Positions 14,986 through 36,355 are shown, counted from the first letter of the stretch. The stretch: DNA of 64,000 bases from Crossiella sp. SN42 (GCF_023897065.1 NZ_JAMHIV010000013.1:1-64000), one strand, 5' to 3'. The notes: generated by a model not told the origin, from the sequence alone. Numbers and translations: made by a program.

Positions 14986-15759
14986 CAGGTTGCCACCACC
15001 GGCGCCCGCGGCATCCTCACCGGCCTCGGCTTCTTCGGCCGCGGCGTGGGTATCGCCTTCCGCAACCCGAAGCTGCTGCTCCTGGGCGCCATCCCGGCGG
15101 TGCTGACCACGGCGCTGATGCTCGGCGGCCTGATCACCCTCGGCTACTGGGCCGGTGACCTGGCCACCTGGTTCACCCCGTTCGCGGACAACTGGTCGGA
15201 ATGGCTGCGCAAGGCCACCAGGTTCGTCGCCGGGCTGGCCGTGGTGCTGGGCGCGATCGCGGTCAGCGTGGTCGCCTTCACCGCGATCACCCTGGTCGTC
15301 GGCGGCCCGTTCTACGAGCACATCTCCGAGACCGTCGAGGACAGCCTCGGCGGCGTCCCGGACGCGGAGAAGGCCTCCTTCGGCCGCATGCTGTTCCTGG
15401 GCATCCGCGACTCGATCCTGCTGGTCGCGGTGGCCGTGCTGCTGAACCTGCCGCTGCTGTTCGCCGGGTTCATCCCGGTGGTGGGCCAGACCGTCATCCC
15501 GGTCATCGTGGCTTGTGTGGGCGGCTGGATCCTGGCGCTGGAGCTGTCCGCGGTGCCGTTCACCCGCCGCGGCCTGACCCTCAAGCAGCGCCACCGCATC
15601 CTGCGCCGGCACCGGGGCATGGTGCTGGGGCTGGGCGTGCCGGCCTACCTGCTGTGCGCGATCCCGTTCGTGTCCATCCTGGCCATGCCGATCGCGTTCA
15701 TCAGCGCCACCCTGCTGGCCCGCGAGGCGCTGTCCCGCCGCCAGGACTCGGGACACTAG
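14971..15759 (+). CDS. EI24/CysZ-like integral membrane protein
   Basis: 262 aa with about five hydrophobic segments, including LLLLGAIPAVLTTALMLGG, FVAGLAVVLGAIAVSVVAF and VPAYLLCAIPFVSILAMP. The layout, with a short amphipathic N-terminus (GRGVGIAFRNPKL) and the GPFYEHISETVE loop, matches EI24-domain proteins related to the sulfate transporter CysZ. The transported substrate is not established for actinobacterial members. The ATG at 14971 is favoured by a -10-like TACGAT 7 nt upstream. It converges on the mutase gene; the two stop codons share the palindrome CTAG. Confidence 0.78.
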   Translation: MSHPAQVATTGARGILTGLGFFGRGVGIAFRNPKLLLLGAIPAVLTTALMLGGLITLGYWAGDLATWFTPFADNWSEWLRKATRFVAGLAVVLGAIAVSVVAFTAITLVVGGPFYEHISETVEDSLGGVPDAEKASFGRMLFLGIRDSILLVAVAVLLNLPLLFAGFIPVVGQTVIPVIVACVGGWILALELSAVPFTRRGLTLKQRHRILRRHRGMVLGLGVPAYLLCAIPFVSILAMPIAFISATLLAREALSRRQDSGH

Positions 15760-17282
15760 AACGCGGTGGTGGGCGTCCAGCGGCCGTGCACCTCGCGCAA
15801 CCGGTCCACGATCTCGCCCACGGTCGCGTAGGCCTCCACCGCCGTCACGCAGGCGGGGACCACGTTCGCCCCGGCCTTGGCGGCGGCGCTCAGCTCGTCC
15901 AGGGCCCGCTCGACCGCCTCGGCATCGCGTTCGGCGCGGACCCGGCGCACCGCCGCGACCTGTTCGGCCTCCGCGCCGGGATCCACCGCGAACACCTCCA
16001 GGGGCTCGGCGGCGGAGGGGAACAGGTTCACCCCGACCACGGGGCGCTCGCCGCTTTCCACCTCCACCGCGTGCCGGTAGGCGGCGTCGGAGAGCTCGCG
16101 CTGGAACCAGCCCGAGCCGATGCAGGCCAGCGCGCCGCCCCTGGTCTCGATCTCGCCCATCAGCGCCCAGATCCGCTGTTCCAGCTCGTCGGTCAGCGAC
16201 TCCACCGCGAAGGACCCGGCCAGCGGGTCGACCGTCTCGGTCAGGCCGGTCTCGAAGGCCACCACCTGCTGGGTGCGCAGGGCCAGCGTCGCGGCGGCCT
16301 CGGTGGGCACGCCCAGGGCCTCGTCGTAGGCGCACACGTGCAGGGTCTGCACCCCGGCCAGTGCGGCCGCGGTGGCCTCGACGGTGGTGCGGGCGACGTT
16401 GTTCAGCGGCTGCTGCGCGGTCAGTGACGATCCCGCGGTGAAGGCGAAGATCCGCAGCTGGTGCGAGCGCGGGTCCTGGGCCCCGTAGACGTCCCGGGTC
16501 AGCCGGGCCCACACCCGCCGCGCCGCGCGGAACTTGGCCACCTCGCGCAGCAGGTCGATGTTGCTGGAGAGGAAGGTGAACAGCGAGGGGGCCACCGCGT
16601 CCACGCTGAGCCCGCGCCGCACGCACTCGTCCAGGTAGGCGCGCGCGTTGGCGAAGGTGAAGGCGATCTCCTGCACTGCGTCCGCACCGGCCTCGCGGAT
16701 GTGGTAGCCGCTCATCGCCAGCGGCACCCAGCGCGCGGCGTGCCGGGACAGGTGTTCGATCACGTCCACCGCGAGCCGCAAGGAGGCTTCGGGCGGGAAG
16801 ATCTGGGTGCCGCGCGCGATGAACTCCTTGAGCACGTCGTTCTGGATGAACAGCCCGAACGAGCTCGGGTCGACCCCGCGTCGTTTGGCCAGGGCCAGGA
16901 ACATCGCGGCCCACACGTAGCCGATGGAGTTGGCGGTGGTGCGCACCTGGCTGATGCGTTCCAGGGGGATCCCGTCCATCAGCGTCTCGACGTCGGCCAG
17001 CGAGTCGATGGCCACGCCGACCCGGCCGACCTCGCCAGCCGCGAGGGGGTGGTCGGAGTCCAGGCCGAGCTGGGTGGGCAGGTCCAGGGCCACGCTGAAC
17101 CCGGTGACGCCCGCGGTCAGCAGCTGCTGGAACCGGCGGTTGCTGGCCGCGGGCGTGCCGAAACCGGCGTACTGGCCCATGATCCACGGCTTGGGCTCGG
17201 CGGAAACCCCTCTGGTGTAAGGGAACTCGCCGGGTCGCTCGGCGCCCTCCGGCGCGTAGTCCGGGCGCAGGCGCTCCACCAC
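15756..17282 (-). CDS. Acyl-CoA mutase large subunit (methylmalonyl-CoA mutase family), no B12 domain
   Basis: 508 aa, the TIM-barrel half only. Landmarks are PWIMGQYAGFGTP, LDLPTQLGLDSDHP, FIQNDVLKEFIARGT, SGYHIREAGA and SSLTAQQPLNNVART. No DxHxxG cobalamin-binding domain follows, and no separate small subunit is encoded in the window. By alignment from memory, Tyr89 of methylmalonyl-CoA mutase corresponds to Ala here, while the carboxylate-binding Arg207 appears conserved. This suggests a bulkier carboxylated acyl-CoA rather than methylmalonyl-CoA. GTG start 3 nt after the upstream stop with RBS GGGAGGG. Last gene of a four-gene operon headed by the monooxygenase. Confidence 0.85.
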   Translation of the reverse strand: MVERLRPDYAPEGAERPGEFPYTRGVSAEPKPWIMGQYAGFGTPAASNRRFQQLLTAGVTGFSVALDLPTQLGLDSDHPLAAGEVGRVGVAIDSLADVETLMDGIPLERISQVRTTANSIGYVWAAMFLALAKRRGVDPSSFGLFIQNDVLKEFIARGTQIFPPEASLRLAVDVIEHLSRHAARWVPLAMSGYHIREAGADAVQEIAFTFANARAYLDECVRRGLSVDAVAPSLFTFLSSNIDLLREVAKFRAARRVWARLTRDVYGAQDPRSHQLRIFAFTAGSSLTAQQPLNNVARTTVEATAAALAGVQTLHVCAYDEALGVPTEAAATLALRTQQVVAFETGLTETVDPLAGSFAVESLTDELEQRIWALMGEIETRGGALACIGSGWFQRELSDAAYRHAVEVESGERPVVGVNLFPSAAEPLEVFAVDPGAEAEQVAAVRRVRAERDAEAVERALDELSAAAKAGANVVPACVTAVEAYATVGEIVDRLREVHGRWTPTTAF

Positions 17283-17285
17283 GGC

Positions 17286-34898: not shown

Positions 34899-34941
34899 CG
34901 AAATTTGCCGCCAGTGTCGGGGTGGGCGCAGGGTGGGTGGC

Positions 34942-35556
34942 ATGGACGAGAAGTACTGGGACACGCTCTACCGCGAGCGGGAGCAGGTGTTCAGCGGCGC
35001 GGCCAACGGCGTGCTGGTGACCGAGATCGAGGGTCAGCCGCCGGGCCGCGCCCTGGACGTGGGCGCCGGCGAGGGCGGCGACGCGCTCTGGCTGGCCGAG
35101 CAGGGCTGGCAGGTCACCGCCGCCGACATCTCCTCGGTCGCGCTGGCCAAGGTGGCCGCCGCCGCGCAGGCCAGGGGCTGGTCGGTGGACACCCTGCACC
35201 TGGACCTGGCAGGAGCCGCCCCGCCGCCTGCCGCCTTCGACCTGGTCACCGCGAGCTTCCTGCCGCTGTTCAAGGCCAACGGCACCGCCCCGCTGCGCGC
35301 GCTGGCCGAGGCAGTGGCCCCCGGCGGCACGCTGCTGGTGACCAACCACCACTTCGACGAGGTCGGCGACCACGAGGGCCACGACGGACGGGCGGTGCGG
35401 ATGGCCGACTTCTACCGGCCGGCCGACTTCCGGCCGCTGCTGGACGAGGGCTGGCAGGTGGTGGTCGATGAGCTCCGGCCGCGCCCGGAACCGCTGCCCG
35501 CGGACGCGCGGCACACCAAGGACCTGGTGTTCAAGGCGGTCCGCCTCAGGTGGTGA
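34942..35556 (+). CDS. SAM-dependent methyltransferase
   Basis: 204 aa from ATG 34942, with a GGGTGGG-like RBS; a GTG at 34933 is also possible. Motif I is ALDVGAGEGGDALWLAEQGW and motif II VTAADIS. The opening EKYWDTLYRERE resembles tellurite-resistance/thiopurine-type small methyltransferases. Substrate unknown. It overlaps the 3' end of the convergent formamidase-like gene by 11 bp. Confidence 0.82.
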   Translation: MDEKYWDTLYREREQVFSGAANGVLVTEIEGQPPGRALDVGAGEGGDALWLAEQGWQVTAADISSVALAKVAAAAQARGWSVDTLHLDLAGAAPPPAAFDLVTASFLPLFKANGTAPLRALAEAVAPGGTLLVTNHHFDEVGDHEGHDGRAVRMADFYRPADFRPLLDEGWQVVVDELRPRPEPLPADARHTKDLVFKAVRLRW

Positions 35557-36355
35557 GGTCGGCGAGGGCCTTGAGCACCGAGGGCCAGGCCGCCGACTCC
35601 GGGTCGATCACGCCGTAGTGGCCCTCGCCGGGCAGTTCCCGCAGCTCAGTGGGATCGCCGGAGGCGACCGCGGTGGCCGCGTAGGAGCGGCTGACCTCCG
35701 GCGGCACCCACGGGTCGGCCAGGCCGTGCAGCAGGATGCCGCGCACCCCGGTGGGCACCAGCCGGGTCGGGTCGGCCGCGGCGTAACGCTCCCAGTGGGC
35801 GTCCGGCTGACCGCCGAGCAACCCGGCCACCGCCCCGTCACCCAGGTTCTCCTCGTTGGCCAGCACCAGGTCCAGCACCCCGGCCAGGGACAGCACACCC
35901 CGGATCGCCGGGCGGCGCGGCAGGTGCCACGGGTTGTGCGCGGGCAGCCGGTGCCTGCTGGCCGCCCACATCGCCAGGTGCCCGCCCGCGGAATGACCGA
36001 GCAGAACCACCCGAACGGGATCGGCCGACGCGCCGAGCAGGCCGGGCAGCGCGTCGATCGCGGCCGCCACGTCGTCCAGGGTGCCGGGCCAGCCACCCTC
36101 GGCCTGACCCACCCGGTGGTACTCGATCGTGGCCACCAGGTAGCCCTCGTCGGCCAGCGCGGCGCACATCGGCCCGGTGTGCGTGCGGTCGTACTCGGCG
36201 AGCCAGAAACCGCCGTGCACCACCACGATCACCGGGTGCGGGCCCTCGGCCACCGGGTACCGGAGGTCGATCACCCGGTCCGGTCCGGGGCCGTAGCGCA
36301 GCACCCGGTCGGGGGCGGGCGCGGGGCGGGTCAGCACGTCACGCGAGTCGGCCAC
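35546..36355 (-). CDS. Alpha/beta hydrolase, probable kynurenine formamidase
   Basis: 269 aa. The oxyanion motif HGGFW and the nucleophile elbow GHSAGGHLAMW, with Asp in GLADPWVPP and His in GEGHYGV, complete a catalytic triad. HGGxW with GxSAGG is characteristic of arylformamidases of the esterase type. Between dioxygenase and kynureninase a formamidase is required to release formate from N-formylkynurenine, and no KynB-type metal enzyme is seen nearby. GTG 36355 is supported by -10 TAGCGT 6 nt upstream. Confidence 0.78.
   Translation of the reverse strand: MADSRDVLTRPAPAPDRVLRYGPGPDRVIDLRYPVAEGPHPVIVVVHGGFWLAEYDRTHTGPMCAALADEGYLVATIEYHRVGQAEGGWPGTLDDVAAAIDALPGLLGASADPVRVVLLGHSAGGHLAMWAASRHRLPAHNPWHLPRRPAIRGVLSLAGVLDLVLANEENLGDGAVAGLLGGQPDAHWERYAAADPTRLVPTGVRGILLHGLADPWVPPEVSRSYAATAVASGDPTELRELPGEGHYGVIDPESAAWPSVLKALADLTT

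Follow-up and report, generated by a model that had tools for sequence, protein, structure and literature searches.

A Crossiella locus joining kynurenine genes to anthraniloyl-CoA monooxygenase/reductase, with candidates for the next two steps of aerobic anthranilate catabolism

The window analysed here is a stretch of 64,000 nucleotides from Crossiella sp. SN42 (NZ_JAMHIV010000013.1:1-64000; G000:C5:1-64000 in our numbering, where G, C and L mark genomes, contigs and loci), part of a genome of 9.72 Mb. Between positions 15756 and 36355 it carries kynurenine-pathway genes beside genes of the aerobic 2-aminobenzoyl-CoA (anthraniloyl-CoA) pathway. We favour, with moderate confidence, the view that this locus is an aerobic catabolic unit for tryptophan and anthranilate, in which a Rid-family protein (RidA) deaminates the product of 2-aminobenzoyl-CoA monooxygenase/reductase (ACMR), and a crotonase akin to 2-ketocyclohexanecarboxyl-CoA hydrolase (BadI) opens the ring. 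Genes were identified from gene calls, open reading frame (ORF) reading and family scans of the window's proteins, which together bear out every gene that an earlier, sequence-only reading had named here; RidA, absent from the codon-model gene calls, was picked up by ORF reading. Comparisons were made with a family sample of 248 genomes, four of which, besides the window genome, are assigned to the same species or genus, and with the best 80 of 252 confirmed ACMR loci, a set skewed to near relatives. In all five Crossiella genomes a span of about 14 kb holds the ACMR, BadI-like and kynureninase genes, with the remaining core adjoining. Since dN/dS is also low (0.05 to 0.22 for all 10 locus genes compared, using two other Crossiella genomes), the locus appears to be more than a chance assembly.

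At its centre is ACMR (20979-23330, minus strand; 783 aa, with a GTG start at 23330), confirmed as a monooxygenase/old-yellow-enzyme fusion by a score of 1176 bits against the NF006101 cut-off of 1078 (1218 with the full frame). It is 66% identical to the ACMR of Arthrobacter plasmid pAL1, and its nearest named relative is that of Crossiella sp. S99.2 (92%). Divergent from ACMR is a short-chain dehydrogenase/reductase, SDR1 (23387-24148, plus strand, start at 23387 or 23408; PF13561). Next in the cluster is a benzoate-type CoA ligase (24515-26146, minus), a predicted anthranilate-CoA ligase, which falls just under the cut-off of the benzoate-CoA ligase family TIGR02262 (361.5 against 375.25 bits) and shares 60% identity with its pAL1 counterpart and 65% with the one from Rhodococcus NJ-530. 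A PaaX-family regulator (26252-27112, plus) diverges from the ligase. RidA (28168 to about 28566, minus; PF01042, 67.2 bits against a cut-off of 27.3) and a second dehydrogenase/reductase, SDR2 (28563-29318, minus; PF00106), overlap by 4 bp, and facing away from them are a thiolase (29366-30544, plus) and the BadI-like crotonase (30556-31353, plus), a predicted 2,5-dioxocyclohexane-1-carboxyl-CoA hydrolase.

The PaaX-family regulator has all three PaaX Pfam domains (PF07848, PF20803 and PF08223), scores under the cut-off of the phenylacetate PaaX model TIGR02277 (181.5 against 264.55), and is 50% and 49% identical to two PaaX proteins of pAL1, the former being the one next to ACMR. The operator that we take to be PaaX-type, TGACGNNCGTCA, is the one reported in work on Arthrobacter MeqR2. 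It has two exact matches in the window, both reading TGACGACCGTCA, at 23354-23365 in the ACMR/SDR1 gap and at 29342-29353 between SDR2-RidA and thiolase-BadI-like, and one match with a single mismatch at 26202-26213 in the ligase/PaaX gap. These three sites coincide with three divergent promoters; the remaining 26 matches in the window have two mismatches. The whole genome contains the 13-base form TTGACGNNCGTCA at two places, both within this locus. In Crossiella G015 it is found once at the BadI-like/SDR2 promoter and once within a large coding frame, and in G084 twice at the locus, with one further site that is coding. Across the 80 loci, and allowing one mismatch, the 53.8 kb preceding pathway genes contain 65 hits and the 142.9 kb preceding other genes contain 3 (about 57-fold), an enrichment that ranks best against 60 permuted palindromes (the next of which has 20 hits before pathway genes and 31 before others). 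The overall count is unremarkable, two of the 60 permuted palindromes occurring in more loci (31 and 17 against 16); only the exact sites and their positions stand out. On pAL1, the gap that separates the second PaaX gene from a hotdog gene holds an exact site, and that between RidA and FAH holds one with a single mismatch. Because of the palindromes at divergent promoters and the upstream enrichment, the core genes look like one regulon, and the PaaX-type repressor is predicted to control them through one palindrome at each of the three promoters.

From gene identities, linkage, tree position and operator pattern, all of them established by comparison, we infer substrates, products and reaction order as follows. 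The dioxygenase, hydrolase and kynureninase of the kynurenine block would convert tryptophan to anthranilate, and the ligase would activate this to anthraniloyl-CoA; the ligase and ACMR reactions are established from other work, and both enzymes, with which the aerobic route begins, were described decades ago. A Rid protein adapted to a CoA thioester would then hydrolyse ACMR's cyclic enamine to 2,5-dioxocyclohexane-1-carboxyl-CoA and ammonia, and the BadI-like crotonase would hydrolyse this beta-keto thioester to 4-oxopimelyl-CoA. Linkage, tree and regulon lend weight to the RidA and BadI-like steps; the one serious reservation, the arginine that RidA lacks, is taken up below.

The sequence-only reading called the crotonase a MenB/BadI-like hydrolase, and of that name the BadI half is favoured. 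The protein stays under both MenB equivalog cut-offs (325.7 against 380 and 308.1 against 342.7). In a midpoint-rooted tree of 24 proteins it forms a single clade (100/99) with 12 other ACMR-linked proteins, separated (100/100) from E. coli MenB, a second copy of MenB type from its own genome and one more protein. That second copy, at C78, is 52% identical to the crotonase and groups with E. coli MenB; on this and the tree split we rejected MenB identity. The nearest outsiders to the clade are actinobacterial proteins, two of them within clusters of SDR, acyl-CoA dehydrogenase (ACAD) and ligase genes, a layout annotated badI-aliB-aliA in Haematobacter. The crotonase shares with BadI its side of the tree, a predicted beta-keto thioester ring substrate, and the Asp of the GSFD motif. 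Tree and gene context together support a ring opener of the BadI type.

Among the 80 loci the BadI-like gene is one of three alternating modules, found in 11 loci, the others being an ECH6 crotonase (21) and a cupin/FAH/thioesterase set (8); 40 have none in the stretch fetched, and no locus has two. By gene calls, RidA accompanies all three (11/11, 18/21 and 8/8, respectively). ACAD and ECH6 each occur with the BadI-like gene in none of its 11 loci (exclusion p 0.0007 and 0.027, respectively, figures that serve as guides only, the rows being related), and exclusion between BadI-like and cupin/FAH is non-significant (0 found, 1.1 expected, p 0.29). A tree of ACMR proteins in 68 rows (64 of the 80 loci, the window and three plasmid rows, with 16 of the 40 no-module loci excluded) requires at least six module changes, rows with no module being uncounted, which indicates that modules were exchanged repeatedly. 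We read the modules as alternative ways of carrying out whatever step or steps follow deamination; the BadI-like module is the only one whose chemistry is evident. At L089, L053, L055, L057, L061, L065, L084, L086 and L087 the place of the BadI-like gene is taken by cupin and thioesterase genes, in most cases accompanied by an FAH-family gene, and a C-C hydrolase of the FAH type might open the ring without being homologous to the BadI-like protein.

One variant of the proposed pathway is a serious contender, although we would not expect it to prevail: SDR2 might first reduce the C5 ketone, so that the BadI-like enzyme would open 5-hydroxy-2-oxocyclohexanecarboxyl-CoA and release 4-hydroxypimelyl-CoA. 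A relative of SDR2 is present in 29 of the 80 loci, in every one of the 11 with the BadI-like gene and in 11 of the 21 with ECH6; its gene overlaps RidA, and BadI-type clusters elsewhere contain an SDR. The sequence leaves the order of events free, however: reduction by SDR2 might just as well come after ring opening.

RidA had been described in the sequence-only reading as unusual company for these genes. It proves instead to be a standard component of ACMR clusters, near ACMR in 73 of the 80 loci by tblastn (at least 42% identity) and in 71 by gene calls and clustering, where the chance of a RidA-family gene within 10 kb of a random point is about 2% (11 such genes in the 9.72-Mb genome). 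Plasmid clusters, drawn from Actinomycetota, Pseudomonadota and Deinococcota, agree: among 95 plasmid records with ACMR, RidA is annotated in seven of the eight cluster regions examined, the exception being Comamonas. The window's RidA is 52% identical to that of pAL1. According to PMC3534580, CoA esters of C7H7NO3 and C7H8O4 acids were formed by the pAL1 strain only on anthranilate; C7H8O4 is the formula of 2,5-dioxocyclohexanecarboxylic acid, the acid of the proposed RidA product.

A number of observations weigh against the proposed pathway. The catalytic Arg (Arg105 of TdcF, following Pro-Ala, its column set from solved relatives) is kept by none of 78 ACMR-linked RidAs, which have Met (71, the window's among them), Thr (3), Ser (3) or Ala (1) in the alignment. 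The three paralogues of the same genome that were aligned, and the five best solved relatives shown, all have the Arg of the Pro-Ala-Arg stretch. Of the C-terminal E-x-E pair, either residue of which may correspond to Glu120 of TdcF, the first Glu is kept in 78/78 linked RidAs and the second is Gln in 61/78. In known Rid proteins the Arg binds the substrate carboxylate and is required for imine hydrolysis, and groups without it are described as being of unknown function, its absence being read as a sign of other functions (PMC4433059, whose main text contains no anthranil-, aminobenzo-, salicyl- or kynuren-). Loss of the Arg fits specialisation, because the proposed substrate is a thioester without a free carboxylate, and it fits a different job for RidA equally well; it lowers our confidence. 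The RidA tree, with its long branches, does not settle whether the ACMR-linked proteins form a single clade, and seven loci (L020, L030, L050, L073, L075, L076 and L077) have no linked RidA, four of which (L050, L075, L076 and L077) end at contig ends, and three of which do not. Because the Arthrobacter cells were quenched with formic acid, and the amino precursor is not stable at pH values under 5 (PMC3534580), the C7H8O4 ester may have arisen during extraction. The crotonase, for its part, scores below the TIGR03210 badI cut-off (284.5 against 467.6 bits), as does a G216 actinobacterial relative in BadI context (320.2), and it lacks, like its actinobacterial neighbours, the Tyr that is present in MenB and in two annotated BadIs. 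We presume this Tyr, and the Asp of the GSFD motif, to be catalytic. In these two respects, and in lying beside ACMR and RidA rather than aliA/aliB, the protein differs from BadI. The window's 29 palindrome matches with up to two mismatches are fewer than the 48 expected by chance, no more than 41 of the 80 loci have the palindrome before pathway genes, and neither an exact nor a one-mismatch site accompanies the window's kynurenine genes.

Some of these points would be explained if the Rid protein were no step in the pathway at all, the cyclic enamine hydrolysing by itself and the protein guarding against reactive side products or doing something else. The missing Arg, the spontaneous hydrolysis of the amino-oxo compound in acid (PMC3534580) and the loci without linked RidA all point this way. 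We nevertheless consider this explanation unlikely, if by no means negligible. The linkage of RidA to ACMR crosses phyla; RidA overlaps SDR2 in one operon, which operator sites precede in relatives; and a specialised enzyme, its predicted substrate lacking the carboxylate, would also lose the Arg. There is, moreover, a named precedent for a Rid pathway step, 2-aminomuconate deaminase (PMC4433059), which like RutC releases ammonia from an enamine in catabolism. Our case differs from both in the predicted substrate, a ring-bound enamine CoA thioester, and in having Met for the catalytic Arg. A related idea, that RidA-family genes belong to benzoate and catechol regulons, has been predicted for Betaproteobacteria (PMC6449761). 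Ammonia release by RidA, as the sequence-only reading conceived it, gains from the linkage and loses from the missing Arg.

The kynurenine block comprises tryptophan 2,3-dioxygenase (32856-33695, plus), kynureninase (33709-34878, plus) and an alpha/beta hydrolase (35546-36355, minus; PF20434), a candidate kynurenine formamidase. All three enzymes that the sequence-only reading named are present, the hydrolase at the level of family only. Kynureninase scores above the TIGR01814 cut-off (268.7 against 246.4 bits); the dioxygenase is above PF03301 (208.6 against 34.9) yet under TIGR03036 (336.3 against 390.7); and family scans of the hydrolase return only alpha/beta-hydrolase families, although it has an HGGFW stretch, which we take to be a formamidase motif. 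It is improbable, in our estimation, that these genes serve NAD or a natural product and merely adjoin an anthranilate locus. They do have an Lrp/AsnC-type regulator of their own (32274-32729, minus, divergent from them; PF13404, PF01037), besides lacking the PaaX-type sites, and only 3 of the 80 ACMR loci have a kynureninase-like match and 1 a dioxygenase match in the stretches fetched (L009, from the same genus, ends before its own). ACMR lies close to kynurenine genes, however, in 5/5 Crossiella genomes and in at least G048, G240 and G085 of the family sample, counts of linked genomes being lower bounds, and the two occur together in Rhodococcus NJ-530, Ruegeria and Ensifer and at L055 and L060. 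The sequence-only reading would have been undone by clusters that never co-occur with kynurenine genes; they do co-occur, in Crossiella and beyond. Across the family sample, furthermore, 77 of the 81 genomes that have ACMR also have kynureninase, as do 95 of the 167 that lack ACMR (Fisher p 3e-11, kinship ignored). In this count 10 genomes whose matches were weak (E 1e-30 to 1e-41), including one that has ACMR, were scored as lacking kynureninase.

Other sources of anthranilate are suggested at other loci. A cyclase-family gene paired with a thiamine pyrophosphate (TPP)-enzyme gene lies near ACMR in 11 of the 80 (L020, L043, L047, L054, L056, L063-L066, L068 and L073), and also at L094. We take the pair to be isatin hydrolase and 2-aminophenylglyoxylate decarboxylase, and it probably serves to make anthranilate from indole or indole-acetic acid by way of isatin/isatinate. 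At L146 (G247:C1:8572000-8591900) a divergent ACMR-like protein, 45% identical, has PaaX-like, ligase-like, SDR, ECH6, RidA, ACAD, dioxygenase-like and kynureninase neighbours: the same set with a different fusion enzyme.

That the ligase makes anthraniloyl-CoA is a prediction of specificity, and anthranilate as substrate, the premise of the sequence-only reading, is supported by the kynurenine genes, the 60% identity of the ligases, the fused reductase half and the PaaX-type regulon. Two Arthrobacter ligases have anthranilate-CoA ligase activity (PMC3534580); we equate the pAL1 ligase with the assayed ARUE_113p00220 from its position next to ACMR. A salicylate locus, in which the fusion enzyme would be a salicylyl-CoA 5-hydroxylase feeding a gentisate route, as the names of NF006101 and of most annotated plasmid matches would have it, is very improbable and was rejected, since kynurenine genes are present here and at other ACMR loci, the old-yellow-enzyme half would have no evident role in such a route, no gentisate dioxygenase occurs among the locus genes scanned, and the pAL1 relative comes from a strain that grows on anthranilate and not on salicylate or gentisate (PMC3534580). 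Many plasmid ACMR records, that of pAL1 included, bear the NF006101 name 'bifunctional salicylyl-CoA 5-hydroxylase/oxidoreductase', which looks misleading.

Three genes that the sequence-only reading had passed over lie downstream of ACMR in its operon and in the same orientation: a methylmalonyl-CoA-mutase-like large subunit without a B12 domain (mut, 15756-17282, minus; PF01642, and above the TIGR00641 cut-off), an AMP-forming acyl-CoA ligase (amp, 17286-18827, minus; PF00501) and an NDP-forming acyl-CoA synthetase with CoA-binding and ATP-grasp parts in one chain (acd, 18829-20982, minus; PF13380, PF13607, PF13549). The spacing toward ACMR is 3 bp after mut, 1 bp after amp and -4 bp after acd, which overlaps ACMR. 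Crossiella G015 keeps the ligase, DUF952, ACMR, PaaX, mycothiol-S-transferase-like, RidA, SDR2 and BadI-like genes and the kynurenine block; genes for thiolase, SDR1, mutase, AMP ligase and NDP synthetase are absent from the stretch examined. On the evidence of this one genome in five we rejected core status for these latter genes, which have been gained or lost at three places of the cluster. Both SDRs and the thiolase do lie with the core in the window, as the sequence-only reading had it, and of the three SDR1 and the thiolase are not part of the core. The tie of SDR1 is wider, since orthologues 65% and 75% identical diverge from ACMR at L020 and L075.

The thiolase comes nearest the 3-oxoadipyl-CoA thiolase models while falling under their cut-offs (PRK09050, 393.6 bits; pcaF, 391 bits), and is above that of the general TIGR01930. 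No beta-oxidation genes (acyl-CoA dehydrogenase, hydratase) lie beside ACMR among the locus genes. 4-Oxopimelyl-CoA is a ketone analogue of succinyl-CoA, and it is conceivable, if doubtful, that in most Crossiella the mutase-like subunit, with a stand-alone B12 subunit encoded elsewhere in the genome (G000:C78), converts it to 2-methyl-3-oxoadipyl-CoA, which the PcaF-like thiolase, a member of the same predicted regulon, would split to succinyl-CoA and propionyl-CoA; if true, such an ending would spare beta-oxidation. The acyl-site Tyr and Arg of the mutase are kept. The relatives' HxQT and LHTN stretches read FAFT and LHVC here and a loop is shortened, as in the two other Crossiella copies examined, and dN/dS is about 0.1; the changed motifs make activity doubtful. 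Orthologues (93-98%) occur in only three other Crossiella of the 248 family genomes (none in G015), the next best match being 52% identical. 2-Hydroxyisobutyryl-CoA mutase, although its large subunit is the best PDB match, was rejected on its Ile and Gln where the window protein has Tyr and Arg.

The locus shares anthranilate-CoA ligase and the fused monooxygenase/reductase with the aerobic 2-aminobenzoyl-CoA pathway of Azoarcus evansii and Arthrobacter sp. Rue61a (pAL1). pAL1 likewise has RidA and PaaX regulators beside these two genes; a BadI-like gene is absent from its stretch, which contains FAH, cupin and thioesterase genes, whereas Crossiella has the BadI-like candidate and linked kynurenine genes. 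MeqR2 is reportedly a PaaX-type repressor that answers to anthraniloyl-CoA, and the Crossiella regulator resembles it in lying beside ligase and ACMR, in the presence of the MeqR2-type palindrome and in its 50% identity to a pAL1 PaaX. With the kynurenine-anthranilate pathway, which is regulated by the Lrp-type KynR, the locus has in common the dioxygenase, hydrolase, kynureninase and an Lrp-type regulator; it differs in being linked to the CoA route, no anthranilate dioxygenase occurring among the genes scanned. The Azoarcus pathway has been described as using beta-oxidation enzymes (PMC4539516), abm and kyn genes are both listed in Cupriavidus metallidurans (PMC8879955), and a 2022 pathway curation omitted tryptophan degradation via ACMR 'due to a lack of knowledge' (PMC9007349). 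Titles and abstract openings of the open-licence literature, which does not include the original Azoarcus and pAL1 papers (these may remark on such genes), link neither RidA nor a BadI-like protein to this pathway, nor do the available parts of PMC4539516, PMC3534580, PMC6449761, PMC9007349, PMC6221969, PMC4433059, PMC8879955, PMC13141888, PMC2842291 and PMC10005059. The locus and its relatives supply candidates for the next two steps, a Rid protein present in almost every cluster examined and one of three interchangeable modules. If the proposal is true, a set of Rid proteins that lack the catalytic Arg gains a function, the database name 'salicylyl-CoA 5-hydroxylase' misleads, and use of anthranilate, indole and tryptophan becomes predictable from genomes.

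The cluster holds further genes that the sequence-only reading did not list, the PaaX and Lrp regulators among them. A DUF952 protein (24135-24518, minus; PF06108) and a mycothiol-S-transferase/DinB-like protein (27132-27674, minus; PF04978) are encoded within the cluster in all five Crossiella genomes, the former between ligase and ACMR in the other four as well. A TetR-family regulator (31337-31918, minus; PF02909, PF00440) follows the crotonase gene, its frame running to 31918 and its start being unsure. In the kynureninase/hydrolase gap lies a gene for an S-adenosylmethionine (SAM) methyltransferase-like protein (34942-35556, plus; PF13649) that is poorly conserved, at 50-62% identity in G015, G084 and G105, and 95% in G053. 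Finally, the 493-bp gap between the mycothiol-S-transferase-like gene and RidA contains a 63-nt inverted repeat (27918-27980 and 28017-28079), its arms 90% complementary and 36 nt apart, which is possibly a small mobile or repeated element.

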